The position numbers were made by a program, and so were the translations under genes. From contig NC_084790.1 in the NCBI RefSeq assembly GCF_028858725.1, forward strand, positions 4,222,001-4,286,000: 64,000 bases of DNA. The letters run 5' to 3'. This document shows positions 3,001 through 45,124 of the stretch, in pieces; position 1 is the stretch's first letter; each line of letters opens with the position of its first letter. The notes beneath the pieces were generated by a model, which did no database searches, was not told where the DNA came from, and saw nothing but the letters and a program-made list of their open reading frames with translations. Source of the DNA: Colius striatus. Taxonomy: Eukaryota; Chordata; Aves; Coliiformes; Coliidae.

Positions 3001-3457
3001 GTGTCAGGGCTGCGCTTGTCATAGTCCTTCCCTCCTACACATGTGCCATATGCTTGTTTGAGGTGTAGTTACACTTTACTGTGCTTTAGTGTACCTCCAC
3101 AGAGCTGACACACAGATGGAAGCCTGTTGTAATGCTGTAGGTGATGCCTTCCTGTAGTCAGCCAACAAACACACCCTAATTGTCAGTGACTTTAATAGAC
3201 AAATTAAAAACCTCACTTTCTATTTGACCTATCCGTTCTTGGACCATTTTTAAATGATGTTGGATGTCATATTCTCTCCAACTGTGGTCTAGCCTGGGAG
3301 TTTGGAAGCTTGAATGCAAAGTTTATCCTTTGAGAATGTATCAGGCCAGATGTCTCTCTTGAAATGGCCTCATTCACCAGCAGTTTCTTCCCTAGAGTAA
3401 AGCGGGTTCCTTAATGAAAATATACAGCTAACTTCTTTCAATTGTTTTTGTTTACAG
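1..3457 (+). other. FBXL20: FBXL20 intron upstream of the first visible coding exon
   Basis: This is AT-balanced, non-coding sequence that ends in a good 3' splice site (tttacag) at 3451-3457. The small open frames here have no recognisable domains and no splice-compatible structure. Human FBXL20 has 14 further N-terminal residues before the methionine encoded at 3458. I found no matching exon here, so the first exon lies upstream. Apart from short T-rich and GTTT tracts (near 2495-2510) I see no repeat or RNA gene. Confidence 0.7.
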
Positions 3458-18400: not shown

Positions 18401-21400
18401 GACAGGGCCGAGTAGTTGAGAACATTTCTAAAAGATGTGGGGGTTTCTTGCGGAAGCTGAGCCTGCGTGGCTGCCAGGGAGTGGGAGACAATGCGTTAAG
18501 GTAGTGATGCGGCTCCTTTCTGCCCTTAAATGTGACATAAAGAACGAGTCCCTTTCTACAGCCACAGAGGATTGGCATAACTTTACGAGCCCTGTGGAAC
18601 TTTATCCCTGTGTGTCTGACTTTACACATGGAGAGCGGTAACATCCAAGCCTCTCTCCTTTGTCATTTTTTAACTTCACACGATAACTGGGGTTTTTTTT
18701 ATCAGTTCTCATTAAAATAATGCCAGCTGCTGCTGCAAGCTAAGTAGTAATTGGCAATGGATTACAAGCTTTTGCCTTTAGGCTGGGAAATCCCAAGGCA
18801 AGACACAGGACAACATAAATTATTTACTTACTTGTTTATTTTCATTGAGACCATTTAACAAAATTGCATCTGATGCATCACAGTTAAAACAAATGCTGTA
18901 AAACATCTGGAAGTCAAGTGGCTGCAAAATCTTGTGTTTTCCCTCTCCTTTAATAAAGGACATTTGCACAGAACTGCAGAAATATTGAAGTCTTGAACCT
19001 GAATGGCTGTACCAAGATCACAGATGCGTGAGTAAAGTCTCTTTCCTTGTTTACCCTGTCACCTCCTTTTCTGTGTGCACTGTGCTATATTCTTCATACC
19101 TTTTGTTTTTTAAGAAAAGGCCAGGCTTGTGCATGTGTTAGAAACAGTATTGCATGTTATATGAAATGTATATGACTTTGAATGACTCTTAGAGAATCAC
19201 AGAATGGTGGGGGTTGGAAGGGCCCTCCAGGTCTCACCCAGCCCACCTCCCTGCTAAAGCAGGTTCCCCTCCATCAGGGGGCACAGGAATATGTCCAAGT
19301 GGGTTTGGAAACCTCCCGAGAAGGAGCCTCCACACCCTCCCTGGGCAGCCTGGGCCAGGGCTCCCTCACTTCAATGTCAAACAAGTTTCTCCTCCTGTTC
19401 CAGCTTGTGCCCATTACCCCTTGTCCTATCACTGGCCACCACAGAACAAACACTGGCTCCATCCTCTGGACACCTGCCCTTTAGGAATTTCTCAGCACTG
19501 ATGAGATCCTGCCTCAGGTTTCTCTTCTCCAGGCTGAACAGCCCCAGTTCCCGCAGCCTTTCCTCATAAGGAGGATGCTCCAGTCCCCTGATCATCTTGG
19601 TGGCCCTGTGCTGGCCTCTCTCCAGCAGTTCCCTGTCGCTCTGGAGCTGAGGAGCCCAGAACTGGACACGGGACTCCAGATGAGGCCTCACCAGGGCAAA
19701 GCAATGCATAAATGTGTCTTATATGCTCTCTTTCAGTACGTGTACCAGCCTCAGCAAGTTCTGCTCTAAACTCAGGCACCTCGATTTGGCTTCTTGCACC
19801 TCCATAACCAACCTGTCTCTGAAAGCACTGAGGTAGGAGGCAACAACAGAGACTTTTGCTGGTTGATTCCAGGTAGTTTGACCCACCCTTGCTCTGGATA
19901 TCTCGTGTGCCTTGGAAGAGACTGATACAGGCTGAGGTGTAACTGATTGGAATTCAGGCATTCCTCATCAGAACTCAACCTTCACATGTTGTACCCTCTG
20001 GTTTTGGGGGGAGACGGAAGTCTTAGTCTGCCTTTTTAAAATGCACTTTTAGTAACAATCAACTTCTTCTCTGTAAGTGTACCAGCAATTGTTCACCCTC
20101 TAGCTGTGTAAATACCAACATGTGGCCGTTTGTCTTTTTAAACTGCTCAGGAGACATATAATTGCTTAGATCTGCTAGAAGGAATTGCCAAGTGACCTGC
20201 AAAAGGAAGGGGCAGACAGACATTGGTGGGAAGATAGTGGGACAGAGAAAAGGAGACAAATCCTACTAAAGATAACAACAAAGGCCAAGCTATTAAAAAA
20301 ATTAAGTGAAATACCAGTGAAATAAAGTAAAATATAGAAAAGCTCTGTCGCAGGGGATAAAATACTGGAGGGAGAATCTAGATACCAGAAGGAAACACAA
20401 AAATGAATGATTGAATTATTTTGGTAGCTACCTCAAAATACTTTGAGCCTGGTTTTTCCTTCCTTTGAGGGCCTTCATGCTTGCCTTTGATTTCACGTGG
20501 TGAAACTTGTGCTGCAGCTGGCTTAAATACATGTTGATGTATCTTATCTCTTCCCAGCTGCAAATGACACTTGAGTGTTGCTCCTGCTCTCAGCCATTTG
20601 CAAATGCCAAGTTACACGTGGAAAGTAAGAAGAGGCACAGCAGCTATTGACCCTGTTTTGGGGGTTGGTTGAGGATAGTTTGGTTGTATTTAGATCCAGA
20701 AAGCCCATGTCCTCATATGGAAGTTGGGAAGTGTCCAAAATGGGATAAATCAGTGGTCCTTTACCCTACAAATACCCTGCTTTAGAGCTCATGCCTCTGG
20801 AGAACTCCTTACTCCTGGAGATGCTGTTTGACTAAAGGGTCCCCATGGGTATGTGGGATATGGATGTACTTCTCTGCGTTCCAGAAGTGGGAATTTCCCA
20901 GGTTGTGGCTTGAAGCAGAGTTTCTTTCCAAAACAAACCCTGAGTTCTCACGCTCTTTGTTGCCTTTTCACTTCCAAAGCGAGGGATGTCCACAGCTGGA
21001 ACAGCTGAATATCTCCTGGTGCGACCAAGTGACTAAGGATGGCATCCAGGCCCTGGTGAGAGGCTGTGGTGGGCTCAAAGCCCTGTTTCTGAAAGGCTGC
21101 ACGCAGGTATGGCTCTGGAGGGTGCTCAGATCGAATAACAACAGCTGTAACCCAAAGTATGAGGGTAAAATTGTGTGAACCTTTAAGACCTTTGAGCTCA
21201 GCCAGAATAGCAGGACAGTGGTGGTGGGGGGTGACCCCCTTGTTTAACTTTTTGTTACTTAGACTAACTTCCTCTAATCTGTCTTTACAGTCTTAACCTG
21301 GTGAATCATTGAAAAGTTTAGTTTGTTAAGCACTTGCCTGTGTTACAGCTTTACTAAGGAGTTACATCAGTTGTGAACCAGAGTGTCCAGAACATCAGCC

Positions 21401-24400
21401 TTAAACATTTCATGAGCTCCTTGCAAAGCTATCTGAACAAAGAATGTGGGGAATCATTCTTACTTTGCAATGGGCTGGGGTCCTTTAGAAAGGAGCAACC
21501 ATGTGTCTTAGAGTCTTTTCCTTCAAAAAGGAGAGTAAAACTGACCCCACAGGAGTTGAAACCTCTGACCCAGAGACTCACAAGCTCATGAGCCTCAAGG
21601 TAGACCTGGGAAATGATCTCTGATCTGTTCAGTCCTTGTGCCCAAGCATTACTTTATGTTGGATTCGTTTGTTTTTTTCACTTGGGGGTAGGGATTCCTT
21701 AAGTATGAGTCAGTACATGCCATTTTTGTCTGCTATGTATAGATAAACAGCTCTATGCTTTTATTTTGCAAAAAGCATCTTTCCTCTGTGCGTGGACACA
21801 AAGTCCTGAAAGGTTCTTCTGAAAAGCAAAGCAAGAGCACACTGGTGGTGTGTGCAAAGCAGTAATACCCTGTGTGCACAAGAGAGCCCAGCTGTAAAGG
21901 CTGGAGTCAGTAGTTTTTCTAAATTTATACTGCTGGTGGATTTTTAGTATGTGAGATGGGTATCCATGGCTGTAAAATCGGCTTGATTAAAGATACAGCA
22001 ATCTCAGCCTATTTTGAGAATTCAGGTCATAGAAACAGCTTGAGTTTCTAGTAATTTATGGAGTTGGAGTGATATTGATGGCAATATATCCTTGCTATCA
22101 ATTACTTGCCATCTGTTCTTATAGATTTAAGAATAGCAGGCTTTTTTATCATCAGAAAGCAACCTGGGTATGTTTGTGCTCCTCACAGTAAGACTCTTTA
22201 GAGTTCCAGTACTGCAGTATAAAAATAGTGTTACTGACAGGCCCTCATTAGTGAAGCATTTCCTGAATTCCTGTAAATACTGTCTGATTCCACCACTTGC
22301 TTTGTTAATGACGCATGTTTGATCAGATCATCTTTTCTTTAAATCAGTAACTCGGGTCTTGTGGGTCTTTGAACTCTGTTCCTGCAATGGTGTTAAAAAA
22401 AATAGTCCTGCACCTATTGCTGTGTGTTTTGAGACTGCAGTGCCCTCCTTCCCTATAGGTATCCGAAGCACAGATGCTTTATTGTCCTCAAAGCCTTATT
22501 TTAAAGATTGTTTCCCGTGTGAATGGGTTTTTTCAGTCTCACGATTCTTCTTTCCAGCTTGAGGATGAAGCTCTGAAATACATCGGCGCCCATTGTCCCG
22601 ATCTGGTGACTTTAAACCTTCAAACGTGCTTAGTAAGTAAAACTTCCTCTCATTTCCCAACTCATCCATCACTGTGCAGCTAGAGGACACCTCTCAGCAG
22701 AACCACACAGAATGTACTCCATCCCTGAAACGTCATCATCTGTTGCAGACAGAGCCAGTTGTGGATTTACGAGCCTTCTAAAAATAGTCAATGAAAACCA
22801 GCTTTTTGGTAGCATTCAGTAATGTTGAATAAGCCCCCAAAACAGTGTCAGAGCAGTCACTTGGTCAGAATTGTTTGTTTGGAAGCCCTGCCCACTGGGC
22901 TTCTAAACTCGTTTGCAGGACTGGCTGGAAAAATTCTTTCCATCGTGCTGGAGTGTTTGTGTGGTGATCTAGCCAGGCAGATCCTCTGCTCTCTTCAAAA
23001 CTGAACCAAGAAGTGCAGTTCCCTGCACAGAGGGCTCTAAACTCGTCACTCTGCGGTGCCAAAAATGTATGTTTATGCCAAAAAAAGAAATTGGAATGGG
23101 CTCTTTGTACTTACTATCCTGTGGTTAGCCTGGCACAAGGAAGAGCTGGACAGCCCCTTCCTTTTCCACAGGATAGGGCAAGGCCTTTGGAAGCTGCAGG
23201 GCTGGCCTTTCCCAGCATTACCAGTTACTGGTCTGGCCTGAGACCAGTGCTCATCCAGCCTAGGTGCTTGCAAAGGAGGAACTGAACTGTTAGCAGGTTC
23301 CAGACCTGCATCTGGGCTCTACAGGAGAGACAGGCAGAGGGGGGAAGAAAACTAATGAGGTTCTCGATCACCTCCACTGTAAATACCAAGTTCTACTTGG
23401 TTTCTGTTTCATCTCGCTCCAGAGTTTGGGCTGACCAAATTGAGTCTGAGTGCTGAAGATTCAGGACCAAAGAGCTCAGGGAGGTTCAACCTGGTCCTCC
23501 AGCGTGCACAGCCTCTGCAATCTCTTGTCCCTTTTTGCCTTTCCTGATTCCCATATGGCTCCTTGGGGCAGCCACCCTGGGCCACAGCCCGTTACGCTCT
23601 TGCTGCTGTAGAGAAACATGTGGAGCAGGTTTGTCTGCTGTTGCCATCCCAGTCCTGGACAGCCCGTGTGTCTGGGGACACAGCAGGTCAGTGGAGCTGC
23701 TGTGCCACAGGATGAATTTAACGTGATTTGGGCTGTAAGCCTGGCTCTCGTGGTTCAGGTTTTGCTCCCAAACCACTGGAGTGTATTTTTAAAAGGCTGT
23801 TTATAAAAGTAACCTGCTGCTTATTTTGTGGGAAGCTCTGACTGTTAGGTGCTTTCCTGTCTTGAGTTTCAGCCAAGAAGGTCTTTGCAGGCCAGGGTTG
23901 CAGAGGCAGCCAGGAGGCCGAGCCTATGCCTACTGCTACCGAGCCTTTCCCCCAGGCTCACATGGCCCAAGCTCAGAAACATTTCCATGCACATGGAATC
24001 AGTTGCCAAATGTCTACAAGCCACTTCCAACGTGGCTTACTGTTTCAGCTGCTCCAGTGAGAGATTTTGGTTTTGGGTTGAAAGAAGCAGAGCTTGGCCT
24101 CAGTTAAGTGTCTGATTGGAAGTCTGAGAAGGAAAATATGCAGTGCCTTGCGCCTCCACCTACGTCGTTATGGCTTGTGATGTTGTTATTGTTTTTCTTG
24201 TAGCAAATAACAGATGATGGTCTCATTACAATATGCAGAGGATGCCACAAGTTACAATCCTTGTGTGCTTCAGGCTGCTCTAACATTACAGATGCCATCC
24301 TGAACGCCCTGGGACAGAACTGCCCGAGGCTTCGGTAAGTTCTCACTGCAGAGCCACCCGAGCTCCAGCGTCCCGTTGCAAAGCATCTTTGGTGACGTGG

Positions 24401-27400
24401 TCGTGTAGTTATTGAGCCATTCCAGACTCTGAAGGTCTTTCTGAAAGTGCACTTTGTATCACTGAGCTTTTTCCTGGCTGGGGTGTGAGCACAGTTTTAC
24501 CCAAACTTCTGGTTTCTAACCCTGGGCAAGTAGAAGAGCTCCGTGCCGTGGTGGTGTGTGCTGCCAGTAGACTCACGTCGTCACGGTTCTCCCGTTACAC
24601 CACCTTTGTCCTTTGATGACAAACAGTAGAGGTTAGGTTGCTTTGGAACTGAAAGCTCGTTTAAACAGCATTGTTTCTCCTTGTCATGTGAGATTAACAG
24701 GTGCTTTTGTAGCAGACGGAATTTGTGCGAAGTTTCACTCTGCTTGCCAGGGTGGGCTTCCAGCGACATCTCTGCAGGTGCTTGCTTTTCTGTTATTACC
24801 TTCTTTTTTAATTAGGACAAGTTCCTTCAGGAAGGACTTTGCTATAACTCAGAAAATGGCCAGGTGCAGGAAGAAGAGACAGTTTTATTGTCTGACATCT
24901 GTAACCGCTGAGCAGCTTGTATTAGATGGCATAAAAATACAAGTCTTCAGGGGAAAGCCAAGCACAGTTGTGTTCTGTGACAACTCACTTTAAGAATTAT
25001 GGGTGCAAAGTGCAGTGTACAAGTGCATGGAAACCAATTTTGAAAGAGGAAAGTAAAATATCATTTTGGTTTCGAGTGGTTTCTGTGTTTATGTTCAGCT
25101 GCAGCTTCAGGGCATTAAGGTCCACGCAGTAAAATGCATAAGGTGGCTTAGGAAAGTTGGCTTCCTCTTCTATAAAGACAGATAAATATGTGAAGGAAAC
25201 CTGTAGAGCTGTGGTAACTGCCTGCCAGAGGGTTCATCTGTTGTCACGGAAGCAAGCAGTTTGCCCTGTAGAAGACTTCAGACTCTTCTGTTGTGGCATT
25301 AAATATTTATTCTCCAGTGCTCACCTGCCAGGTAGTTGTGTGTTACACCCATGATGATGAGATCTGTGTTTTGGGTGGAAACCAGAGGAGACCACACGGG
25401 GAGGTTGCAGAGTGTCCAGCAGTGAAGGTTTTTAAGGGCATCTCAGCCCAGTGTTTGTGGGATCAGACCCCCTCCCTGCTTCACAGCAGGGTTCAGACCA
25501 GATGGCCCCTGGAGTTCCCTTTTAGCCTGACTTCTTTCTTTCTGTCCTTGTGACCTACACTCAGGTATAGAGGGTGGGTGCTCTGTGCAAATTATCCTCT
25601 CAGAGAGCACAGCCTAAACCGGGTCAAACTTTTCTGGGTTGCTGGAAGCTTCTAATGAAACACTCTGAAAAGCAAAATGACTCCACCATGGTTATTATAA
25701 ATTCTTTCTGTGCAGAATATTAGAAGTTGCAAGGTGTTCTCAACTAACAGATGTGGGCTTTACCACTCTAGCTAGGGTAAGTGCTCATTTCCACTTTTTC
25801 AGCAAGTACCTTTGCTTTCCTTTCATGATAGATACAACCAAACAGTAGATTTCTCTTGAACGTAGATTGTTGCAACGTGTTTGGTCTCAGCATTTGAGCA
25901 TAAGCAAGTTGCAGAAACCAAGTTGTGTGTAATCACTGATGTTGGCCCGACCCACACATCTAGGAGGATGTGCACACAGGCTGCATGAAATGTGAAGTAC
26001 TTGGGAGTTAGAAACTTCACTGTTTGCTTTTCTAGATTAGTCTGGGTTGTGTATAAGTGACCCCAAATTTATCTACCTTTACTTCCTAATAATAAAAAGC
26101 AAACCCTGTGTGCCTTTAAATGGGTGAAACTGGGACATTTCCTCTACTGTATTTGGTGCTGTTTGTAAAGAAGCAGCAAACCTCCCTGCCAGTTGTGATG
26201 TGTTGTGGAGAAAACCCTTCCTTTTCAAAAAGAGCTGTCTTTATCTGTGGTGGTGTTTATGTTTGCTGTCTGAACTTTGCACTTAGTTTGTGTGTTCCGT
26301 CTCCTGTTTGTTCCCAGAACTGCCACGAGCTTGAAAAAATGGACCTGGAAGAGTGCGTGCAGGTAGGAGGTGCCACCTCTGGCTGTTTCTCTTTCAACAG
26401 AGTGCAAAAACGAGTGGGAAAAGCAGTAGTTTGTCTCCAAATCAGAGCTGGATTTAGAGTCCTGATCAAGAAGATGGGGTGTATTTGGTTAAGAGAATTC
26501 CTGCTCTTGTAGTTCGGTGCTTTGTTTGGGTTTCATAGTAATGGCTGTAAGTAATAACAAAGTAAATAGTGCTGTGAATAGCAAAAAATCTTTAACAGCA
26601 GTAGATGTGCCCTGAAAGTCAAGTAATACGTGTGTGAATTGTGAAACTTGACACAACAAAGTCCCAGAGTCTGACCTTTACACGTGAGGCAAAGGAAGGT
26701 TTGTGCTGGACACAGTGGAAATTACCTCTGGATTGAAAACCTGTAGCCAGGCTGTTTGAACAGCAATGGTTTTAGAGAGGGCAAGGTCTCAAAATGAAGC
26801 TGAGGAGCTCGTGCTGCTTCCTCAAAGGCAGAGGGATGAAAGGTATTGATTCTGTCAATGCTGAGCCTCATAACCCTGAGCTGCAGACACATTCCTTGGC
26901 GTTATGGAGAGGTCTCCTGTGGGCTGTATGCCAATAACCATCTCCAGGGAGCATTTACAGGGGCAAATAGTTGCATTTACTCAAGATGCCATGAAAAAAT
27001 AAATCTCTAAGGGTAGATTGGAAATCAATTCAGATAAAGACAGTAGAGAGAACAGGACTTTCCTTTCCTCTAGTCTGGAGGAGGCTGACAGGAGGCTGTA
27101 GTGAAGTGCAGACAGTTACTTCTCCCAAGTAATGTAAAAGGAAACGGAAACAGCCTCGAGTTGCCCCAGGGGAGGTTTAGATTGGAGCTGAGGCAGAACA
27201 TTTTACCTGAGAGGGTTGTCAGCCCCTGTCCTATGCTGCCCAGGAAGGTGGGGGAGTGCCCCAAAGCCAAAGCCGTGGAGCTGAGGTGCTGAGGGCCGTG
27301 GGTCAGTGGTGGGCTGGGCAGGGTGAGGGCAGGACTGGGACTCCAGGAGCTGAAAAGGCTTTTCCAACCCAAACAATTCTGTGATTCTATGATTTTGCTT

Positions 27401-30400
27401 CCTGCCATAAGAACAGCATAACCCCAGAATTCTGCATTTCCTGATATTTACAAGGCAGAAATTCATGAGATCACAAGAGGAAATTACAGTAGTCCAGACA
27501 GGAAGTGATTTAAATTAACCCAAAAAAGGAAGAGGCAAAGTTGAGCTATGTCCTTGGACTGACTGCATTGAGCAAAGACATCCCTTCTGAATGCTTTCAG
27601 ATGAGAAAGCCTCTTTCTTCCTGAAGAAGAAAGAGAGAACAATTCAGCAGTCCAAGGAGCTGCTGGGAGGAGGTTTGAAACACCTCTTGTACTTGGAGAG
27701 AGACATTTAGCAGACACTGGGGTGTTGGAGAGCTCTGCTCACTTGCTCCTCTCAATTGTGAGCTATTTCATGAGACCCACTTAAAGTTCAAAAAGAAACC
27801 CAAGTGATTCCTCTGCCTTAAGTGGTCTTTTAAGGCCAGGAGTTGATTTCTGTAAGGGAGTGGAAGAATCTGTAGGTGTGAAATGTGGTAATGCAGGAGA
27901 TGAGTGCCTGAGGGGCTCAGGATGGTGAATGTGGGGAACAGTGGCATTGGATTAGGTAGAAGAACTGCAGTTTTTCTTTTGTAGGGGGTACAAAAGAAAA
28001 GTCCTTGTGCAAAGCACCCAGCATGAAAGGGCTTCTTCTCTTTTTTTCCAGATAACAGACAGTACACTAATCCAGCTTTCCATACACTGTCCAAGGCTTC
28101 AGGTTCTGGTGAGTGTCACAAGTGAGACTTTCAGCATTTTCTTTCTATAAACAAAGGGATTTGAAGCACTGCCTGGGGGGAATTTGCTTTCTTTGACTTC
28201 ACTGACATGTTGCGAAGGCTTGGAAGAATTCAGCTGGAAACTTGACCCCAAAGAACCTATTGTCCCTCCCCTGCTGTTAACATGAATCGTACACCAGGCA
28301 CCCACAGCTGCCTGAAAATGAGTTGTAGGACACTGGATCCTCCTGGTGCCAGGCTCTGCTGTCCTCAGCAAGCCTGGCAGGTTCTGTCTGCAGCAGAAGA
28401 GCCTACAGACCTGTACCATGGAGCTGGGCAACTGAGGCTGGAAACTTTCCTGGCTCTGGAAAACGATTTTCCTCTTTGACTTCAGTTACTGGGAGTTTAG
28501 TCTCAGTCTGCCCTGTGTCCTTGTGTGCACTGCTCTGTTGCCATCCTGAGGAAACCTGTCCTGGGAGGTGGGGGAATGCAGTCAGTGGGCTCTCTTGTGC
28601 AGCCATCTCTCTTGTGCAGCCCCTCAACAAAGCAAGAGGCAACAAGTGACTGGACAAGAGGAAGCAGCCTAAAGTTGCTCCAGGGGGGTTTTAGATTGGA
28701 GCTGAGGCAGAACTGTTTCCCTGAGAGGGGTGTCAGCCCCTGTGCCAGGCTGCCCAGGGAGCTGGAGCAGTGCCCAGCCCTGGAGGGACCCCAAAGCCGT
28801 GGAGCTGAGGTGCTGAGGGCCGTGGGTCAGTGCTGGGCTGGGCAGGGTGAGGGCGGGGCTGGGACTGCAGCAGCTTCAAGGGCTTTTCCAACCAAAACGA
28901 TTCTGTGACTCTATGAAGATGCAACTGCCCCCAGAGTAATGCCCCGAGTAGGTGACATGGTATCTCTGCAGGTTCTTAGACCCAGTGCCAGGGCCCTTCC
29001 CATGACCTGTGAGGCCACAAGTGTTGCAAAGGTGGTTTGTTTGATAGCAGAGGTATTTATTCTATTTCTGTCTCACCCTGGCACCATGGAGCTCACCTTT
29101 CAGCAGTTGCCTCTCCCATTGTGCTTAGCTATGAGTTTTCCTCTCAGAGACACATCAGCCATTGGAGGCCCTTGGAGCCTGGTAACACTCCAGTGCTATA
29201 GACCTATCCAGAACATGGCCAGCTAGGCCATATCCATGGCATGTGGGCTGTCTTCTTTCTCGTCCCACAGTGTCCCCTGGCTGGGTGTTGGCTTCTGCTG
29301 ACTTGCTGTGTTTGCATGTAGAGTTTGTCCCACTGTGAGCTGATCACGGACGACGGGATTCGCCACCTGGGAAACGGCGCCTGCGCCCACGACCGTTTGG
29401 AAGTGATCGAGCTGGACAATTGCCCCTTGATCACTGATGCCTCCCTGGAGCACCTGAAGAGCTGCCACAGCCTGGAGAGGATAGAACTGTACGACTGTCA
29501 GCAAATCACACGGGCAGGGATCAAGAGACTCAGGGTAAAACACCGCGAAGGCTGGGACTTGAAGGTTTTATCCCATGGGGAGGAGGGAGGGCTGTGGTTT
29601 CAGGTTTTAAAAGTGCTGTGAGAGCCATCACCTGTGGAATTAAATAGCTGCCATGCACAGGTGAATTTTAGCTGGTAGGGAAGGGAGATAATTGCTGTGT
29701 GCACTGAGGAGCAGCTGAAGGAAGAAAGGAGGAGAGACCCAGCATGTTTTACAGGCTTTTCCAAATGAGGGACCAGGAGTTTGGGCCACAGCAGTTGTGC
29801 AGAGGGACACCTGGGTGTGCTCAGCGTGGATTGTTGTGTGCTCACGTTGACACTTTCCATATCACCCCTCAGGCTGGTCCTGTGACACTGCCATAGGGGA
29901 GGCTGCATGGCCTCACAGCGGAACACAGCCAGGGCCAGTCTGTCACTGTCACTAGCCACTGGGCACCTGAGGCACCTCCTGTCCCAGAGTTTCCCTCCCA
30001 ACTCTGTTCTTCCATCTGTAAAAGAGGAGCAGTGATACCACTTCATTGGCAGGGCATGTATTGGTGCAGTCAGGGGTGGTTCTGTTCCCCACAGCCACCA
30101 CAGGGTTGCTGGTGAGGAAAAAGCATCATTTGTTCTTTTTCTCTGTCCTTGTTTTCTGGTAACAGCGAGAACTGGTTAATCCACAGGCTGGGAGAATCAT
30201 GCTGGTAACTGAGTTTGCCTCTAGTTTTTATGGGTGTGTTTGTGACCTGGCAAGTAAGCCAGGGCTGTCACAGCTTCTCTGTGACTCCTGCACTGCCATT
30301 CACAGAGTCCCCGAATGGTGGGGGTGGGAAGGGCCCTGCAGAGCTCACCCAGCCCCATCCCCTCCTAAAGCAGGTTCCCCTCGCTCAGGGGGCACAGGAA

Positions 30401-31210
30401 TGTGTCCAGGTGGGTTTGGAAACCTCCAGAGAAGGAGCCTCCAACACCCTCCCTGGGCAGCCTGGACCAGGGTTCCTTCACCTAAGCACCAAACAGGTTC
30501 CTCCTCCTGCTCCAGTGGAACTGTTGGTGTTCCAGCTCGTGCCCGTTACCTCTTGACCTGTCACTGGCCACCACAGAGGAAAGACTGGCCCCATCCTCCT
30601 GACACCCATCCTTTGAGTATTTATGTTAATGAGATCCCCCCTCAGTCTCCTCCAGCCTGAACAGGTCCCACAGCCTTTCCTTAGCGGGAAGATGCTCCAG
30701 TCCCCTGATCATCTTGCTGGCCCTGTGCTGGCCTCTCTCCAGCAGTTCCCTGTCCCTCTGGAGCTGGGGAGCCCAGAACTGGACACAGGAGTCCAGATGA
30801 GGCCTCACCAGATATGGCAGAGCAGAGGGGGAGCAGAACCTCACTCCACCTGCTGCCCACACTCTCTTAATGCCCCCCAGGCTGCCATTGGCTTCTTGCC
30901 CACGAGGGCACGGTGCTGCTCATGGTTAGTTTGTTATCAGACAGCACTGCCAGGTCTCTCTCCTGGAGCTGCTCTCCAGCAGGTCACCCCCAGCCTGTCC
31001 TGGTGCAGGGGGTTGTTCCTCCCCAGCTGCAGGACTCTCTATGTCCCTTGATGCACCTGCTGGGGTTACCTGCCTCTTTACATGCTGTGTTTGTCTTTCC
31101 AGACCCACTTACCCAATATCAAAGTCCACGCCTACTTCGCGCCCGTGACTCCCCCTCCGTCGGTCGGAGGCAGCAGGCAGCGCTTCTGCAGATGTTGCAT
31201 CATCCTATGA
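3458..31210 (+). CDS. FBXL20: FBXL20 (SCRAPPER), F-box and leucine-rich repeat protein; 14 coding exons, first exon outside window
   Basis: This is the substrate receptor of an SCF (SKP1-CUL1-F-box) ubiquitin ligase. The family member is known at presynaptic sites, with RIM1 as a described target. Exons by splice sites and homology: 3458-3519, 13108-13162, 16025-16099, 18406-18500, 18959-19027, 19737-19832, 20980-21106, 22558-22632, 24204-24334, 25716-25776, 26318-26362, 28052-28108, 29322-29534, 31103-31210. Together they give 422 residues. With the 14 missing N-terminal residues this equals the 436 aa of human FBXL20. The F-box is in the first three exons ([20 protein letters not shown]). 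The rest is a run of LRRs with the typical C..ITD pattern ([25 protein letters not shown]). The C-terminus CCIIL is a CaaX-type prenylation signal shared with FBXL2. All junctions are GT-AG and in phase, and no break is seen. Identity is near certain; the exact 5' end is not visible. Confidence 0.97.
4081..4625 (-). mobile_element. CR1 LINE fragment, antisense, 3' part
   Basis: Read on the minus strand, it encodes the end of the CR1 ORF2 protein ([20 protein letters not shown], then the [10 protein letters not shown] region). It ends in the CR1 3' tail, seen here as its complement (cagaatcacagaatgatggg at 4081). It is 5'-truncated, as most CR1 copies are, and lies in the first FBXL20 intron visible here (3520-13107). 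Confidence 0.9.
9065..10536 (+). mobile_element. CR1 LINE, longest copy in the window, with reverse transcriptase region
   Basis: About 1.5 kb in sense orientation, running from the N-terminal part of the reverse transcriptase ([17 protein letters not shown]) through motif A ([11 protein letters not shown]) and the SGVPQG motif to the C-terminal [17 protein letters not shown] segment and the CR1 3' tail (cccttccaacccctcccatt). The coding frame is interrupted several times, so it is inactive. It lies in the first FBXL20 intron visible here and is the most complete of all CR1 fragments in the window. Confidence 0.95.
12082..12755 (-). mobile_element. CR1 LINE fragment of a second subfamily, antisense
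   Basis: The tail reads as catagaatcgtggaatcgtt followed by a TTGGTTGGAAAAGACC-type block. The interior has the conserved antisense block starting at aggctcaacacccccattcc. This 3' end differs from the GGTTGGAAGG type seen at 4081 and 19193, so at least two CR1 subfamilies are present. Confidence 0.8.
15082..15620 (-). mobile_element. CR1 LINE fragment, antisense, with an internal duplicated segment
   Basis: A tail-type start (agaatcccaaaatccctgag) is followed by the usual antisense CR1 3' block. The segment containing cctgggccagggctccctca occurs twice (near 15237 and near 15418), each time followed by the gtttctcct block. This suggests an internal duplication or a second CR1 copy overlapping the first. 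Confidence 0.75.
17989..18025 (-). mobile_element. Possible CR1 3' tip
   Basis: A short match to the antisense CR1 tail (ggatgatagaggatggaagg). It is too short for a firm call. Confidence 0.35.
19193..19708 (-). mobile_element. CR1 LINE fragment, antisense, close upstream of FBXL20 exon at 19737
   Basis: The tail (agagaatcacagaatggtgg) begins at 19193. The minus strand encodes the [20 protein letters not shown] segment of CR1 ORF2. The copy ends less than 30 bases before the FBXL20 splice acceptor at 19731-19736, so the branch-point region of that intron is partly CR1-derived. Confidence 0.9.
25390..25550 (+). mobile_element. Possible old CR1 tail
   Basis: Weak resemblance to an eroded sense CR1 3' end (cagggttcagaccagatggc, then a tggagttccctttt-like block). 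It is much more diverged than the other copies, so the call is uncertain. Confidence 0.35.
27085..27395 (+). mobile_element. CR1 LINE fragment, sense, 3' end
   Basis: It contains the CR1 3' block (gagctgaggtgctgagggcc) and ends in ttccaacccaaacaattctgtgattctatg-type tail sequence near 27395. It lies in the FBXL20 intron between the exons at 26318 and 28052. Confidence 0.85.
28625..28918 (+). mobile_element. CR1 LINE fragment, sense, 3' end
   Basis: Same subfamily as the copy at 27085: the interior gccaggctgcccagggagct is followed by a tail ending near 28918. Two copies of one subfamily in the same orientation lie about 1.5 kb apart on either side of the exon at 28052-28108. Confidence 0.88.
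30301..31065 (-). mobile_element. CR1 LINE fragment, antisense, just upstream of the last FBXL20 exon
   Basis: It starts with an antisense tail (cacagagtccccgaatggtg) and continues through the complement of the [17 protein letters not shown] segment to about 31065. The last FBXL20 exon begins at 31103, so most of the terminal intron is CR1 and little unique sequence remains before the acceptor. Confidence 0.9.
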
Positions 31211-36334: not shown

Positions 36335-36340
36335 TTTAAT
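36335..36340 (-). terminator. ATTAAA polyadenylation signal for the CP2-family gene
   Basis: Read on the minus strand this is ATTAAA, the commonest variant hexamer. It lies about 290 bases after the stop codon at 36627-36629 and gives the gene a short 3'UTR. It is the only good signal seen in the expected range. Confidence 0.6.
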
Positions 36341-36626: not shown

Positions 36627-39600
36627 CTACCGCAGCAACACGTGGTAGCCCTCTGGGCCAGGTGCTGCCCAGAGATGTGGCTCAGACGGGGCCGTTGTCA
36701 CTTGCCCACGTCCCCTGGCCACTGTGTTACCTTTTCCAACAGCCACCACAAAGCATGTCTCATCCAGAATGTTCCTGATCATCTGTGGGACCGTGGGGTG
36801 AGGTGAGGGAGCCCAGGCTGTGGCTGCTCATCCCATCCCAGAGCCTGGACCCCTGTCCCACTGCAGTGAGGGGCACCCAGGGGGGCTGACCCCAGAGGGC
36901 TGGGATGGTTGCAGGGTCTGGCACCACCCAGGTGTCTCCCTTGGTCCTTACTGTGTCGCTGACGAGGATGTGGATGCCGGAGGGTCCCTGCCGGGACAAC
37001 CGCAGGATCTGGCCCACGGGCAACCCCAGCAGCTCGGCCAGCTTCCCAGCCAGCTCGGCCACCGTCAGCTCCTCCAGGTGCAGCTCCTGGTACAGCCCTG
37101 GAACACGATGGGGATGGGGTGATGAGCACAGACCCTCCACCTCCACCTGCCCTTCACCCACCCACCCACCTGAACACCCGTCCTCTGTGCCCTCGGCCGC
37201 GCTGTCGGGCTCCCGCGACACGTAGAGGGTCAGTCGGGGCTGTGGGCACCTGTGGAGGCAGAGAGAGGGGGTGAGGGGGGGCCACAGGACCCAGACAGGC
37301 TCCCGGGGGTCCCTGGAAAGACATCAGAGCCCACCTGCCCGTCAGCGTGTGGCAGAGGCGGATGCCGTCAGGGGCTCCACAGATCTGGATCAGGTCCCTG
37401 CGGGAGAGCTTCAGCAGATCAGCGCCTGCGGACAGTGGGGTGGGGAAGTGGTCAAGGGGGGTGGCAGCCACAGGGGCTGCCTCTGCCCCACACCCCAAAC
37501 CCAGCACTGCTCACAGCCTCACCTGTGAAGTTGGCAAAGGTGCGGGAGTAGGCAGAGAAGCGTCGCTTGTGCAGCCACTGCTGCGTCTCCAGGGGGGACG
37601 CACAGGGGCTCAGCGCCTGCAGCAGCAGGAGCAGGGCCTCAGCTGGGGCTTGATCTGAGGGGGCATGTTCTCAGCCCAGACAGCCTCTCCTGGGGGGCCC
37701 TGGGGGGCTACAGGGGTGCTGGAGGCCGTGCTGATGGCACCCTCACCTCGCCAGGACTCTCCGTGGGGCTCTCGGCAGCACAGGCGGGCGACACGCAGCC
37801 CCTGTGGGGAGTGAGGATGGGGTTGGGTGAGAGACCCTGGCAGGGAGTGGGAGTCCAGGGGGGGCCCTCACTTACCTGTCAGGGCTCAGCAGCTTGAAGG
37901 AGTGAGGAGACGGCAGCCCCGGGGTGCCTGGGGGGGTGTGGGGAGCAGCCAGCGCATCCGGCCATGGGGCACACTGAGGATGGAGGGAGGGGGTCAGGGG
38001 GGTGCAAGGTCCTGGAGGCCACCCAGCCCACGGGGAGGGTGCTGGGGCCGGGTCCCACCTCCATCAGGACGGTGCTCTCGTAGGACGGCTGGAATTTCTC
38101 CCTCTCAGGCACCGGCTGCTTCTCCACCTTCTCCCGGTCCGTCTTCTGCTTCCTGTCGGCTCCCTTGGGCTGTGCCAGGGGCAGTGAGGGTGGCCCAGGG
38201 ACCGCTGCCACGGCAGCCAATGGGACCCCAGGCCCCCAGACACCCAGACCCCTGGGGTGCCCAGACCCCCATAGTCCCGCTCCCCACGCAGCCACCCCAG
38301 ATGCACCCAGGCCCTCGTGCTCGGAGCAGGCGATGCCAGGAATGGGAGGCACTGGTCACCCCAGGGTGGCTCAGACCCCCCCTCCTCAATACCTTGAACA
38401 CCTTGACGAGGCAGCTGGCAGAGTGGAGGTGCTCAGGGGGGTCTCCCTTGCCCCCTGCCCCGAAGGTGTCGATCTGAATGCGGAAGGGAACACCTTTCTC
38501 CCCTCCGTTCTTCCGCAGCGTGAACTCGGTGCTGATGCAGTGAACCTGGCCAGAGATGGGGCTGATGAAGCCCCCCTGCACCCCCTCAGCCCCCCTTCAG
38601 CCTCCCCAGCCCCTCTCTGGGCCTGGCCCCCACCTGCACAAAGACAGACGTCCGCCTCCACGGGTCCCAGAGGAACTCCACCGTGTTGAGCAGCGTGGGG
38701 TGGATTTGGGGATCGACGACGCCGACGGAGAGTGGGATGTCTGCGCGTGGTGGGCGGGGGTGGAGAGTGAGCACAGCCCCCGCAGACCCCCACCCCGGCC
38801 CCCTGCCCTCCGCCGGCACTGACCGATGTCGAGGATGCGATCGCCCGGGCGGCTCCACCGCCACCCCTCCAGCTGCTGCTGCTCCGAGTACTGCAGCCGC
38901 CTGTCGTGGAAGACCACCCGCACCAGGCTCTGGCGCGCAGGATCAGGCCCGGGCCACCAGCCACGGACCCGCGGAGACATGGGGCTGCACTGGGGCTAGA
39001 CCAGTGCTGAGCTGGTCTGCACTGGGGCTGGGCTGGGACAGGACTGGGGCTGCGCTGGGACTGGACTGGGACAGGACTGGGGCTGGGCTGCGGTTGAGAC
39101 AGGGTTGGACTGGGGGTGAAGTGGGGCTGAACTGGGACTGAACCGGGATTAAAATGGCATTGAGCCGGGGCTGGACTGGGATTTCAGGTCCGAGCTGCTC
39201 CCCACGGCTTCGCCCCAGGATTTTGGGGGTCCTCAGTCCCCTCACCTTGAGCATCCTCCGTCCTTCCGCGCCGGGCTCCGCCCGGGGGTTTCCCATCATC
39301 CGGATCTCATACGACTGCCCTGCGCAGGGTGGGGAGAGAGGGGGGAATAGGGGGGCAAAAGTGGGTGCTGAGCACCCCGGCAGTGGCGAGTCTCACCTCC
39401 TCAGCCAGGTGCCCACCGTCCCCCCAGCTCACCCTGGTTGAGGTAGGTGAGAGTCTCCTCGTGGTAGCGGACGGCGGGAGATGTGGGGGCACAGAGGATG
39501 TACTGGAACGGGGGGCAGGGGGGCTGCGAGGTGGAGATGCCGTTGGGTTCCTCCTGCTTCATGAAGGGCAGCCCGACGGGGGGGTCCCTGTGGGAAACAA

Positions 39601-39777
39601 CGCCGTCCCGCAGGGGAGACACTCAGCCGTGCCTCAGTTTCCCGAAGTGGCAGGGATGATTTAGGGTTGGGGGCAGGGGGAAGGAGCTGTTTACCTGAGC
39701 ACCCCAGAGCTGGAGATGGGGTACATCTCCCCAGGACTGGACCAGTAGTGGTCAGGTTGGCCGTGCCAGAAGAGCAT
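36627..39777 (-). CDS. CP2/LBP-family transcription factor (fourth paralog beside TFCP2, TFCP2L1, UBP1); complete, 15 exons, 480 aa
   Basis: A sequence-specific transcription factor of the Grainyhead/CP2 superfamily, expected to be nuclear and oligomeric. Exons on the minus strand: 39695-39777, 39433-39587, 39246-39319, 38824-38929, 38634-38740, 38393-38545, 38059-38169, 37876-37973, 37747-37801, 37523-37616, 37335-37425, 37170-37249, 36952-37097, 36731-36782, 36627-36664. The sum is 1443 bases, 480 aa plus stop (human TFCP2L1 is 479 aa as I recall). The start [11 protein letters not shown] matches the TFCP2L1-type N-terminus, and MKQEEP keeps the K-x-E of the sumoylation site known in TFCP2L1. 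The CP2 DNA-binding domain covers about residues 45-250 ([67 protein letters not shown]). The SAM-like domain is at about 315-375 ([31 protein letters not shown]). The C-terminal oligomerisation region ends EGYHVLLR (family GYHIILK). All junctions are GT-AG and in phase. The exon 10 acceptor (37617) is the least certain. No break is seen. Only the paralog name is open. Confidence 0.93.
38960..39180. repeat. Degenerate short tandem repeat (ctgggact-type) in an intron of the CP2-family gene
   Basis: Repeats of about 10-12 bases around ggactgggctggga fill most of the intron between exons 3 and 4. The copies are imperfect. It is G-rich on the plus strand and so C-rich in the transcript. Confidence 0.6.
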
Positions 39778-40894: not shown

Positions 40895-43800
40895 ATGACG
40901 GAGCCTCCAGAGGAAAAGGAGTCGGCGGGGACCCCCGAACCCCCCCCCGCCGGCCCCGGAGCCGGGCATGGCAGCAAGGTACGGCCGGGGGGATGCGGGC
41001 GTGCAACGGGAGGGGGGATGTGAGTGTGCAAGGGGGGGATCAGTGTGCACCCTATCCCCAGCTTTGGAGTGTCGCTGGGGAGGAGGGTTCAGCCTCGAAG
41101 CTACCCCAGCCCCCCCCGCCGGCATCACTGCCCCGGATTCCCGGTCAGGCTGGGGTGGTGCAGCGGGGGAGGGGGCACTTGGGGGGGTCCCTGCTACCCC
41201 AGGGAGGTCTCTGCAACCCCCGGGCGAGGTTCCCCTGGCCCCTCCAGGGGTCCCTGTCATCTCGGAGGGGTCCCGTGGCCCCTCCTGGGGTCGCTGCCAC
41301 CCCGAGGGGAGGGGTTCTGCCATCCCGGGGGGGGGGATCCCTCCGGCAGATGCTGCGGCTGAAGCGGTCCTTGTCCCTCCGGACGCTGCTGCGGAGCAAG
41401 AGCGTGGAGAACCTCTTCCCGCGGGCGGGAGGGGGTGTGCAGGGCCCCGTCCCCCCCCCCGTCCCCCCCGCGGACACACGGCTTCCAGCAGTACGTCTTC
41501 AAGAAGCATTGTCCCTGCGAGCTGTGCCGGCAGCTCATCGCAGGTGGGGGCTGCGGAGGGGTTCCCGGGGGTAAAGAGGGAAGTGGAGGGGCTACCCCCG
41601 ACCGTGACCATGACCCCCCCCCCCGCCTCGCTGCCCGCAGGCAACTCGCGGCAGGGCTTGCGGTGCAAGACGTGCAAGGCGGGAGTGCATCTCTGGTGCT
41701 CCGAGGGCATCTCGCACCAGCAGTGCCCCGGCAAGACGGTACGTGCTGGGTGGGAGTACGGGATGGGGGGGAACGACAAGACACACAGAACCCTGCCAGC
41801 CCGCCCCCGACCCCCCCCGGCACAGCCCTGACCCCCCCGGGGGGGTGCAGGCATGGGGTGTGAGCGTGGAGATGTCAGTGCGTGTGCAAGGACCGACCCC
41901 CGCACACAGGGACCCCCGGCCTCAGGACCTCTGCGGCACCCCAGCTCTGCCCCCTCCCGGGGCTTGTTCCTAAAGCTCCCTGTTTTTGTTTTTCCCCCAG
42001 GCCACTGTTTTCCGCCGCAATTTCAGCTCCCCCCTCTTGCTGCCAGAGCAGGGGGGCTCCGCGCAGAACGAGCCCCCCCCGGGTGAGCCCTTCCCAGCCC
42101 TGGCTGCACCGCGGAGCCGGGGTTGCACCCGCCGTGGGGTGCAGACTGGGCTGGAGGGGCCCTGACACCCCGCTGTGTCCCCCCCACAGACCCTGACACG
42201 AGTGTGGACCCGGTGTACGAGGCGCTGCGGTTTGGCACCTCCCTGGCACACGGCACCAGCCCCACAAAGCTGCCCCCCGACATCCAGGTACCCCCCCAGG
42301 ACTGGAGAGGCGTGGGGGGGCACCATGGTGGGGATCCCGCTTTCCCCCCCCCACGGCCCTTCCTCTGCTCCAGGGTGAGACAGCAGCAGCTGAAGAGGAG
42401 AGTGGGGACACCCCGAGCAGTGTGGGGAGCCTGAGTGACAGTGGTAAGGGGGTGGCTTGGGGTGGGGGCACGAGGTGGGGAGGGGGGGGTCAGGCCTGAC
42501 TCCATCTGTCTGTCCCAGCAGCTCTCACCCCAGTGGAGAGGGACAGTGTGGAGGAGAGCCCCGGGCAGCAGGTGAAGGTCCAGGGGGCCAAGATGGGGAT
42601 GAGGGGTGGGGATTGGGGTTTTGGGGTACTGCACCGGGGCTGTGGGGAAGAGGGATGGGGCACTGATATGGGGCTGTGCAGTCCGGCTGGGACTGGAGGG
42701 TAGGGCTGGGGGCTGTGGGACACTGCAGGGGGCCACAGGGCAGGGCTGGAGGCTGGGGGGCAGAGCTGGGGGCACAGTGGTGGGGCTGGTGGCGTGCGGT
42801 GGTAGAGCTGGGGCTGTGAGGCATGGCTGGGAGCCGTGGGGTAGGGCTAGGGACTGTGGGGGAAGATTGGGGGCCATTGGGGCAGGACTGGGGGCTGTGG
42901 GGCACGGCTGGGGGCTGTGGGGCATGGCTGGGGGCTGTAGGGTAGGGCTGGGTGGTGGGGGGCATGGCTGGGGGCTGTGGGGCACAGCTGTGGGTAGTGG
43001 GGCAGAGCTGGGAGCTGTGGGGCACGGCTGGGGGCTGGGAAAGAGGGCTGGGGGCTGTGGGTCAGGGCTGGGGGCTGGGGGGCAGGGCTGGGGGCTGTAG
43101 GATACAGCTGGGGGCTGTGGGGCAGGGTTGGGGGCTATGGGTCAGGGCTGGGGGCTGTGGGGCAGGGCTGGGGGCTGTGGGGCACGGCTGGGGGCTGTGG
43201 GGCAGGGCTGGGAGCTGTGGGTCAGGGCTGGGAGCTGTGGGGCAGGGCTGGGAGCTGTAGGGTATGGCTGGGGGCTGTGGGGCAGGGCTGGGGGCTGTGG
43301 GTCAGGGCTGGGAGCTGTGGGGCAGGGCTGGGGGCTGTAGGGTACGGCTGGGAGCTGTGGGGCAGGGCTGGGGGCTGTGGGGCAGGGCTGGGGGCTGTAG
43401 GGTACGGCTGGGGGCTGTGGGGCAGGGCTGGGGGCTGTGGGGCAGGGCTGGGAGCTGTAGGGTATGGCTGGGGGCTGTGGGGCAGGGCTGGGGGCTGTGG
43501 GTCAGGGCTGGGAGCTGTGGGGCAGGGCTGGGGGCTGTAGGGTACGGCTGGGAGCTGTGGGGCAGGGCTGGGGGCTGTGGGGCAGGGCTGGGGGCTGTAG
43601 GGTACGGCTGGGGGCTGTGGGGCAGGGCTGGGGGCTGTGGGGCAGGGCTGGGAGCTGTGAGGCAGGGCTGGGAGCTGTAGGGTACGGCTGGGGGCTGTGG
43701 GGCAGGGCTGGGGGCTGTGGGGCACGGCTGGGGGCTGTGGGGCAGGGCTGGGAGCTGTAGGGTATGGCTGGGGGCTGTGGGGCAGGGCTGGGGGCTGTGG

Positions 43801-45124
43801 GGCAGGGCTGGGAGCTGTGGGGCAGGGCTGGGGGCTGTAGGGTACGGCTGGGAGCTGTGGGGCAGGGCTGGGGGCTGTGGGGCAGGGCTGGGGGCTGTAG
43901 GGTACGGCTGGGGGCTGTGGGGCAGGGCTGGGGGCTGTGGGGCAGGGCTGGGAGCTGTGAGGCAGGGCTGGGAGCTGTAGGGTACGGCTGGGGGCTGTGG
44001 GGCAGGGCTGGGGGCTGTGGGGCACGGCTGGGGGCTGTGGGGCAGGGCTGGGAGCTGTAGGGTATGGCTGGGGGCTGTGGGGCAGGGCTGGGGGCTGTGG
44101 GGCAGGGCTGGGAGCTGTGGGGCAGGGCTGGGGGCTGTAGGGTACGGCTGGGAGCTGTGGGGCAGGGCTGGGGGCTGTGGGGCAGGGCTGGGGGCTGTAG
44201 GGTACGGCTGGGGGCTGTGGGGCAGGGCTGGGAGCTGTGAGGCAGGGCTGGGAGCTGTAGGGTACGGCTGGGGGCTGTGGGGCAGGGCTGGGGGCTGTAG
44301 GGTACGGCTGGGGGCTGTGGGGCAGGGCTGGGAGCTGTGGGGCACGGCTGGGGGCTGTGGGGCATGGCTGGGAGCTGTGGGGCAGGGCTGGGGGCTGTGG
44401 GGCACGGCTGGGGGCTGTGGGGCACGGCTGGGGCTGTGTTCACAGGCTGCCCGCGGGCCGGCACGGCGGGACGGGGCACCCATGTTCTCTTACGTGGCTC
44501 TCTACAAGTTCGTGCCGCAGGAGCAGCAAGACCTGGCGCTGCAGTGAGTGGGGCGGGGGCTCAGCGGGGTTGTGGGGCACCGGACCCACGGGGGCAGCGG
44601 AGGAGGGGAGGCAGCGACGCGTCCCCCCGGCTGCCCCACGCCTCCCCCCGCCAGGCCCGGCGACAGGGTGACGCTGGTGGATGACTCCGACGAGGACTGG
44701 TGGAAGGTCGGGGGGCTCTGCGGGGAGGGCGCCCGGGGGCCGGTGACGGCGCAGCAGCGGCTCGCTGGAGCCGGGGGCAGGGTCTCAGCCGCGCCCCCCC
44801 GGCCGCGCTGCAGGGGAAGGTGGGCGACCGCCTGGGCTTCTTCCCGGCCAACTTCGTGCAGCGGGTCCGGCCCGGCGAGAGCGTGTGGAGGAGCTGCCGC
44901 GCCGTGCCGGGCGACAGGGAGCGGGGCCGGATCGGCCTCCGCCTGAACCAGGTACCGGGCGCACGACGGGTCCCGGCGCGTCCCGCCCCGAGCTGGGGCC
45001 GCGCCCCGCCGACCCTCCGTCCGTCCAGATCTGCGTGGGCGTGGGCAGCTCCCGGGGCCTCGTCCGGGTGACCAGCGGGAGGAAGCGGGGGCTGGTCCCC
45101 GCCGAGGCACTGACCGAGATCTGA
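40895..45124 (+). CDS. STAC2: STAC2, C1 and SH3 domain adaptor of L-type calcium channels; 11 coding exons
   Basis: A cytosolic adaptor whose family binds the II-III loop of CaV1 channels through SH3 domains, promotes surface expression and slows inactivation. Exons: 40895-40978, 41350-41543, 41641-41738, 42001-42082, 42190-42287, 42374-42443, 42519-42571, 44446-44543, 44655-44706, 44814-44951, 45029-45124. Recognisable parts: [18 protein letters not shown] near the N-terminus; a C1 zinc finger with its Cys/His ligands ([29 protein letters not shown]); the conserved [14 protein letters not shown]; the first SH3 ([40 protein letters not shown]); and the end [11 protein letters not shown], diagnostic for STAC2. 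The product is about 353 aa against 411 in human. Exon 2 (41350-41543) reads out of frame across a poly-C tract (41451-41469) by one base, which is more likely an assembly length error than a real break because everything downstream is conserved. Intron 7 holds a large minisatellite. Confidence 0.95.
41150..41335. repeat. Degenerate 25-30 bp tandem repeat in STAC2 intron 1
   Basis: About six imperfect copies of a unit built on ggggtccctgccaccccgag run almost up to the acceptor of exon 2 at 41349. Copies differ at many positions. Confidence 0.55.
42605..44440. repeat. 20-bp G-rich minisatellite with higher-order structure in STAC2 intron 7
   Basis: The unit is about ggggctgtggggcagggctg, 20 bases, present roughly 75 or more times. 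It is degenerate from 42605 to about 43100 and highly regular after that. Variants (tagggtacggctgg, gggtcagggctgg, gaggcagggctgg) recur in fixed order, giving blocks of about 300 bases; for example the block at 43464-43760 is repeated almost exactly at 43764-44060. Because 20 is not a multiple of 3 and the unit lacks stops, long open frames appear on both strands. They are not genes. The transcript strand is G-rich, with four or more GGG runs per two units. Confidence 0.95.

Follow-up and report, generated by a model that had tools for sequence, protein, structure and literature searches.

A fourth vertebrate LSF/CP2-type transcription factor gene in the bird Colius striatus, with indications of a link to a frog ionocyte factor

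In the 64,000-nucleotide stretch of Colius striatus DNA analyzed here (the window), we identified an intact gene that we interpret, with a probability of about 0.9, as the bird orthologue of a fourth vertebrate transcription factor of the LSF/CP2 type. It is probably an ohnolog of TFCP2, TFCP2L1, and UBP1 that is older than the split between sharks and bony vertebrates and was kept in many tetrapods and in a lungfish. In human, the family is counted as three in a table of PMC6585022 (TFCP2, TFCP2L1, and UBP1), a paper that places these genes at 12q13, 2q14, and 3p22.3. We found no description of a fourth CP2 gene in the open-licence literature that was searched, and as far as that literature goes, the window gene adds a member to a family already known. 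The sequence records indicate that the fourth lineage is widespread but recorded under its paralogues' names. On sequence grounds, the intactness of the gene, its domains, its orthology, and its conserved neighborhood can be regarded as established. The main addition to the preliminary description of this DNA is a link to a frog ionocyte factor.

Splicing by script on the minus strand gave 15 exons between positions 39777 and 36627, with GT donors and AG acceptors in 15 of 15, consistent phases, and a coding sequence of 1443 nt including the stop, which encodes 480 amino acids with no internal stops. The coordinates, exon number, and protein length in the preliminary description were thereby reproduced. 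Splice sites were picked by hand with known family members as a guide. The acceptor of exon 10 is ambiguous in the window alone and was set by homology, the 94 nt picked being those of both paralogues and of a bald eagle protein (P0001).

Pfam matches, all above their cutoffs, bore out the three domains that had been proposed for the protein: CP2 (PF04516; residues 54-244; E = 4.8e-51; 173.6 bits), SAM_3 (residues 316-373; E = 1.3e-16), and GRHL1_C (residues 379-479; E = 3.9e-16). A CP2 domain followed by a SAM-like and then a C-terminal oligomerization domain is the arrangement of the LSF/CP2 subfamily. All coding exons lie on the minus strand. Exon 1 (39695..39777) is a first exon of the MLFWH type with the donor GTAAAC. 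The CP2 domain starts in exon 2 (39433..39587), continues through exons 3 (39246..39319), 4 (38824..38929; 106 nt), and 5 (38634..38740; 107 nt), has its core in exon 6 (38393..38545; 153 nt), and ends in exon 7 (38059..38169; 111 nt). Exons 8 (37876..37973) and 9 (37747..37801) encode a linker, and the SAM-like domain starts in exon 10 (37523..37616) and occupies exon 11 (37335..37425). The GRHL1_C domain starts in exon 12 (37170..37249); exons 13 (36952..37097) and 14 (36731..36782; 52 nt) encode more of the C-terminal domain, and exon 15 (36627..36664) ends in EGYHVLLR and the stop. About 290 bases past the stop, a string match on the minus strand (ATTAAA; 36335..36340) is a candidate polyadenylation signal. 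By sequence, the best match among solved structures was the human TFCP2 domain (8y7v; residues 54-269; E = 6.9e-111), followed by GRHL1 and GRHL2.

In the assembly, a CP2-family search returned 15 matches and one that used the human TFCP2 domain returned 19, and both sets fell on the same six places: C40, which carries the window, C13, C7, C6, C3, and C30. The last three are loci of GRHL-type sequence. From C13 we spliced a TFCP2L1 of 475 amino acids and from C7 a UBP1 of 501 amino acids, each with 15 coding exons, so that three CP2 genes were found in the assembly, the window gene included. TFCP2 was not found, as 19 of 19 matches to the human TFCP2 domain were at the six known places; the assembly may simply lack TFCP2 sequence. 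All exon phases are identical in the window gene and the bird's own TFCP2L1 and UBP1, and 8 of the 15 exons have equal lengths in the three genes (106, 107, 153, 111, 94, 91, 52, and 38 nt). The window gene model is far beyond chance, because both paralogues share its 15 exons, its phases, and these eight lengths.

The window gene resembles TFCP2L1 (also CRTR-1 or LBP-9) in domain order, exon number, phases, MLFWH first exon, and similar length, but TFCP2L1 has its own gene on C13 and its own clade, and the two proteins are identical at 73% of positions in the CP2 domain (140/191) and 39% in the linker (26/66). With UBP1 (LBP-1a/b) it shares domain order, exon phases, and a mirrored neighborhood, whereas UBP1 has its own gene on C7, a main start exon beginning MAWVLKMDEV, and 70% identity in the CP2 domain (133/191). 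The likeness to TFCP2 (LSF or CP2c) is in the CP2 domain, which aligns to 8y7v; the two were separated by the tree, in which TFCP2 had two rows.

Three protein searches, each contributing its best 120 of 2449, 2436, and 2615 matches, gave 296 proteins, each row being a cluster at 90% identity. A 60-row tree was built from 54 of these, picked for spread and full length, and six other rows (the window gene, the bird's own TFCP2L1 and UBP1, one human TFCP2 domain, and two human GRHL domains). One of the 54, P0055, is a TFCP2-like record in which a stretch is repeated; of the two TFCP2 rows, one is a partial domain. The 60 rows included no ray-finned fish, cyclostomes, or invertebrates. A tree of the DNA-binding domain used the same 60 rows, and topology tests used 58, with GRHL omitted.

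The window gene fell in a fourth CP2 clade of 30 rows with support of 100/100 (100/99 on the DNA-binding domain alone), which was recovered likewise without the GRHL outgroup and upholds the distinct fourth lineage that had been proposed. Its sauropsid members, with the window gene, are eagle, crane, manakin, crocodile, tortoise, lizards, and snake; the others are platypus, marsupials, placentals, frogs, salamanders, a caecilian, and a lungfish. For the lungfish protein (P0076), the bit score was 614 against TFCP2L1 and 611 against the window gene, but its placement in the fourth clade was fully supported. UBP1 formed a clade of 15 rows, including three sharks and a coelacanth (100/94), with the fourth clade outside it. 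TFCP2L1 was apart from both; its position was poorly fixed at the GRHL root, and without GRHL it formed one clade (100/100). In both 60-row trees, the window gene grouped with TFCP2, TFCP2L1, and UBP1 and not with the GRHL genes, which belong to the same superfamily and share its C-terminal domain family but have loci of their own and form a far outgroup.

The neighbors of the gene are FBXL20 and STAC2, as the preliminary description had claimed. Coding matches to human FBXL20 cover 3455..31207 on the plus strand, convergent to the window gene. STAC2, matched with the human protein, lies head to head with it about 1.1 kb away on the plus strand, from a likely ATG at 40895 to the last coding match at 45121 (40895..45121; coding matches 41347..45121), with a Pfam STAC2_u1 match at window positions 42177-42254. 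The names FBXL20, FBXL2, STAC, STAC2, TFCP2L1, and UBP1 follow the human proteins and their families, and the matches given here support them. A mirrored arrangement of FBXL2, UBP1, and STAC had also been noted, and we found this pairing in the Colius genome itself: on C7, FBXL2-like exons on the minus strand (4823383..4804879) are convergent to UBP1 on the plus strand (4770619..4801337), with a STAC gene on the same chromosome. Within the assembly, the STAC2_u1 family had two matches on C7 (3.64 Mb), one on C40 (in the window), and none at any other place, and topoisomerase II matched on C40 (3.78 Mb), on C7 (18.0 Mb), and once, with a stop inside, on C39. FBXL20/FBXL2, STAC2/STAC, and topoisomerase II are therefore each paired on C40 and C7, as in a paralogon.

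The split that separated the fourth gene from UBP1 predates that between sharks and bony vertebrates, as the shark UBP1 rows are inside the UBP1 clade and the fourth clade is excluded from it at the support given above. Ray-finned fish and cyclostomes were absent from the best 120 matches of each of the three protein searches. Since three families are split over C40 and C7 and shark UBP1 groups inside the UBP1 clade, the gene fits an ohnolog of the vertebrate genome duplications, and the combined sequence evidence supports reading it as the fourth. In the best tree, the fourth clade and UBP1 were sisters (88/90), and joining the fourth clade to TFCP2L1 (p-AU = 0.32) or to TFCP2 (p-AU = 0.09) was not rejected; the GRHL root was on a branch of 3.7. 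We therefore regard UBP1 as the best, though unproven, sister. An old paralogue made by duplication of one gene or segment rather than by the two genome duplications would be in keeping with tree tests that fix neither the sister paralogue nor the root, but we think such an origin unlikely, given that the FBXL, STAC, and topoisomerase II families are all divided between the same two chromosomes.

As judged by these comparisons, the window gene evolves faster than its paralogues. It matches crocodile at 155 of 191 positions of the CP2 domain, compared with 185 of 191 between the bird's own UBP1 and alligator, and the bird stem of the fourth clade is long (0.27 in the 60-row tree). GC at third codon positions (GC3) is 0.84, versus 0.49 and 0.50 in the paralogues, and part of the faster change may be due to this high value. 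The window protein keeps 118 of the 139 CP2 positions that are invariant in eight paralogue rows. Its identity to bald eagle is 93% in the CP2 domain (177/191), 53 of 58 in the SAM domain, and 82% in both the linker (58/71) and the C-terminal part (79/96). The long stem and the change faster than that of UBP1 and TFCP2L1 might be taken to mean that the gene is decaying in birds, still readable yet weakly constrained and scarcely expressed. We consider this improbable: high GC3 may explain part of the change, 15 of 15 exons are intact and their splice sites canonical, the CP2 domain is the part most like that of eagle, ahead of the linker and C terminus, and long orthologous proteins are recorded for many birds, although some are flagged as low quality.

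Queried with three proteins, none of them TFCP2, 176 of the 296 proteins matched the window gene best, 103 matched UBP1, and 17 matched TFCP2L1. The preliminary description had proposed a fourth ohnolog retained in this bird and lost in mammals. Its first part fits the C40/C7 pairs and the tree, but we reject the loss, as platypus, marsupials, and many placentals carry the gene and their rows are inside the fourth clade. The best 120 matches to a lemur protein included lemurs, Saimiri, tree shrew, colugo, carnivores, ungulates, whales, bats, pangolin, moles, and afrotherians. Rodents, lagomorphs, xenarthrans, and catarrhines were missing from the matches listed in the searches with the window gene and the lemur protein (best 120 each), and rodents and one catarrhine were present among the TFCP2L1 and UBP1 rows listed by the third search. 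Absence of rodents, lagomorphs, and catarrhines from the best 120 matches is not proof of loss; because the rows are clusters at 90% identity and the best 120 matches are listed, a hidden catarrhine member is possible, and a hidden rodent member is less likely.

In several species, the fourth gene and a paralogue are separate records whose contigs differ in length, as in Molossus nigricans (P0138 and P0207), Megaptera (P0068 and P0280), and Spea (P0064 and P0282). Many fourth-gene records are named "transcription factor CP2-like protein 1," some are named "upstream-binding protein 1," and some carry only a domain name; "TFCP2 factor" is the name given to two rows from birds (P0082 and P0085). 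The last name, together with the lack of TFCP2 among the 19 assembly matches, could suggest that the window gene is the bird TFCP2, moved to a new place; a union of TFCP2, represented by two rows, one of them partial, with the entire fourth clade was not rejected (p-AU = 0.09). We find a moved TFCP2 very improbable, as grouping the window gene with these two rows was rejected (p-AU = 8.4e-7), mammalian orthologues are in the same clade, and the neighbors are FBXL20 and STAC2.

The N-terminal MLFWH had been noted as resembling TFCP2L1 more than UBP1. We rejected it as a sign of kinship with TFCP2L1, because UBP1 also has MLFWH, as an alternative first exon. In the bird's own UBP1, an open stretch of this type (MLFWHSQPEHYYHHQYPTSNSSYLR) is found at C7:4765363, 5.3 kb upstream of the MAWVLK exon, and MLFWH occurs in 6 of the 103 proteins (of 296) that match UBP1 best, such as shark P0221 and frog P0293. 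A MAWVLK-type exon was found neither at 30 to 45 kb of the window nor in 40 kb around TFCP2L1. The parsimonious view is that the ancestor had two first exons. That TFCP2L1 or UBP1 was copied to a new place recently, or in birds alone, as the database names and the MLFWH start common to the window gene and TFCP2L1 might suggest, is scarcely credible, since trees with the window gene joined to bird TFCP2L1 or bird UBP1 were 464 and 460 log units worse under the model used (p-AU = 9.9e-54 and 4.2e-11) and the bird has both paralogues elsewhere as full 15-exon genes; the preliminary description had named a recent copy inside bird TFCP2L1, UBP1, or TFCP2 as a result that would overturn it, and the tree rejected each.

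A link to function comes from a 2026 paper on Foxi1 that studies Xenopus laevis "ubp1" (PMC12768278). The cloning primers given there encode MLFWHSQ at the start and FHCILR followed by a stop at the end, and the quantitative PCR primers encode YIATDT and VADLFS. P0119, an X. tropicalis protein of the fourth clade and the only Xenopus row, is the one protein of the 296 that contains YIATDT or VADLFS; it has both. Other frog rows of that clade have sequences like YISTES and LADLFS at these places, and four frog UBP1 rows have YVCQEQ or YVCQDI and MAAVFN; salamander and caecilian TFCP2L1 rows have YVCQES or YVCQEP and IANLYT. A C-terminal HCILR is found in only 7 of the 296 proteins, all from the window-gene search and all matching the window gene best, and the four frog UBP1 rows end in FHIIMK, LHIIMK, or FHVIMK. 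FHCILR itself is the C terminus of 0 of the 296 rows, and the C terminus of P0119 is mispredicted. The MLFWHSQ start alone is not decisive, because some UBP1 rows have it. These four primer peptides, which cover parts of the X. laevis sequence and not the whole, point to the fourth gene, an orthologue of the window gene, as the frog "ubp1" by which beta-ionocytes are specified, which would thus be neither UBP1 nor TFCP2L1. The frog gene has been named after, and discussed as, a different paralogue in PMC12768278 and PMC6213935, the latter a 2018 review that groups frog ubp1 with mammalian UBP1.

In the frog experiments reported in PMC12768278, knockdown of "ubp1" lowered the beta-ionocyte marker slc26a4 and prolonged dll1, and overexpression gave extra ionocytes; the significance of some automated counts varied with settings, for example, for the effect of ubp1 knockdown on foxi1 and slc4a1. 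From its frog orthologue, the fourth gene would be expected to act downstream of Foxi1, promoting beta-ionocytes that carry pendrin and shutting off dll1, a Notch ligand. By analogy with the family, its CP2 domain would bind CP2-type DNA sites, and its SAM-like and C-terminal domains would form dimers or higher oligomers, perhaps with paralogues. The likeliest sites of action in birds would be intercalated cells of the kidney and other ionocytes; by this analogy, an ionocyte role in birds is plausible, though we put it at slightly below even odds.

The authors of PMC12768278 treat frog Ubp1 versus Tfcp2l1 in beta cells of the mouse kidney as differential use of factors. Frog tfcp2l1 is also a member of this ionocyte gene set, and a simple exchange of one factor for another between frog and mouse need not have taken place. 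Judged by the primers, work on acid-base-transporting cells of frog skin was done on the fourth gene while being compared with mammalian UBP1. Correct naming opens the questions of whether the fourth gene acts in kidney intercalated cells of birds, reptiles, cats, and pigs and of what substitutes for it where it is gone. We speculate, while holding it rather unlikely in full, that selecting beta-ionocytes downstream of Foxi1 is an ancient task of the fourth gene in tetrapods. Birds, reptiles, amphibians, and many mammals would still use the gene in this way, and its loss toward mouse and human would have left the task to TFCP2L1. If this were true, the contrast between frog Ubp1 and mouse Tfcp2l1 would conceal a switch from one gene to another, and the step in which beta-ionocytes are selected would be poorly modeled by mouse and human.

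The human TFCP2 domain, searched against the Colius striatus assembly, recovered no TFCP2 gene: all 19 matches fell on TFCP2L1 (contig C13), UBP1 (C7), the fourth CP2-family gene, or GRHL loci. Either TFCP2 is missing from this assembly or it was lost in Colius striatus. Among the matches listed, public protein records label orthologues of the fourth gene variously as TFCP2-like protein 1, UBP1, or TFCP2.

One TFCP2-like ENA protein retrieved by the database searches (P0055; 590 aa) carries a stretch of the DNA-binding region as a repeat, which reflects either an assembly error or an exon duplication. The squirrel monkey (Saimiri boliviensis) orthologue of the fourth gene (P0133) had an unusually long branch in the 60-row tree, 0.21 versus 0.05 to 0.07 in that tree's seven other placentals, as if the gene were decaying or its prediction were poor. 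Topoisomerase II, with genes on C40 (the contig of the fourth CP2-family gene) and C7, gave a third match at G000:C39:40540303-40540473 in the same assembly; it contains an internal stop and is perhaps a processed copy.

The fourth gene and STAC2 lie head to head, with a spacing of ~1.1 kb (window positions 39777-40895), and from this arrangement they may share a two-way promoter. In Colius striatus UBP1, an alternative first exon, MLFWHSQPEHYYHHQYPTSNSSYLR, is located at C7:4765363, 5.3 kb upstream of the MAWVLK exon, the main start exon, and has counterparts in shark (P0221) and frog (P0293, as MLFWHTQ) proteins. This shared exon suggests that there were two ancestral promoters, which were afterwards divided among the paralogues.
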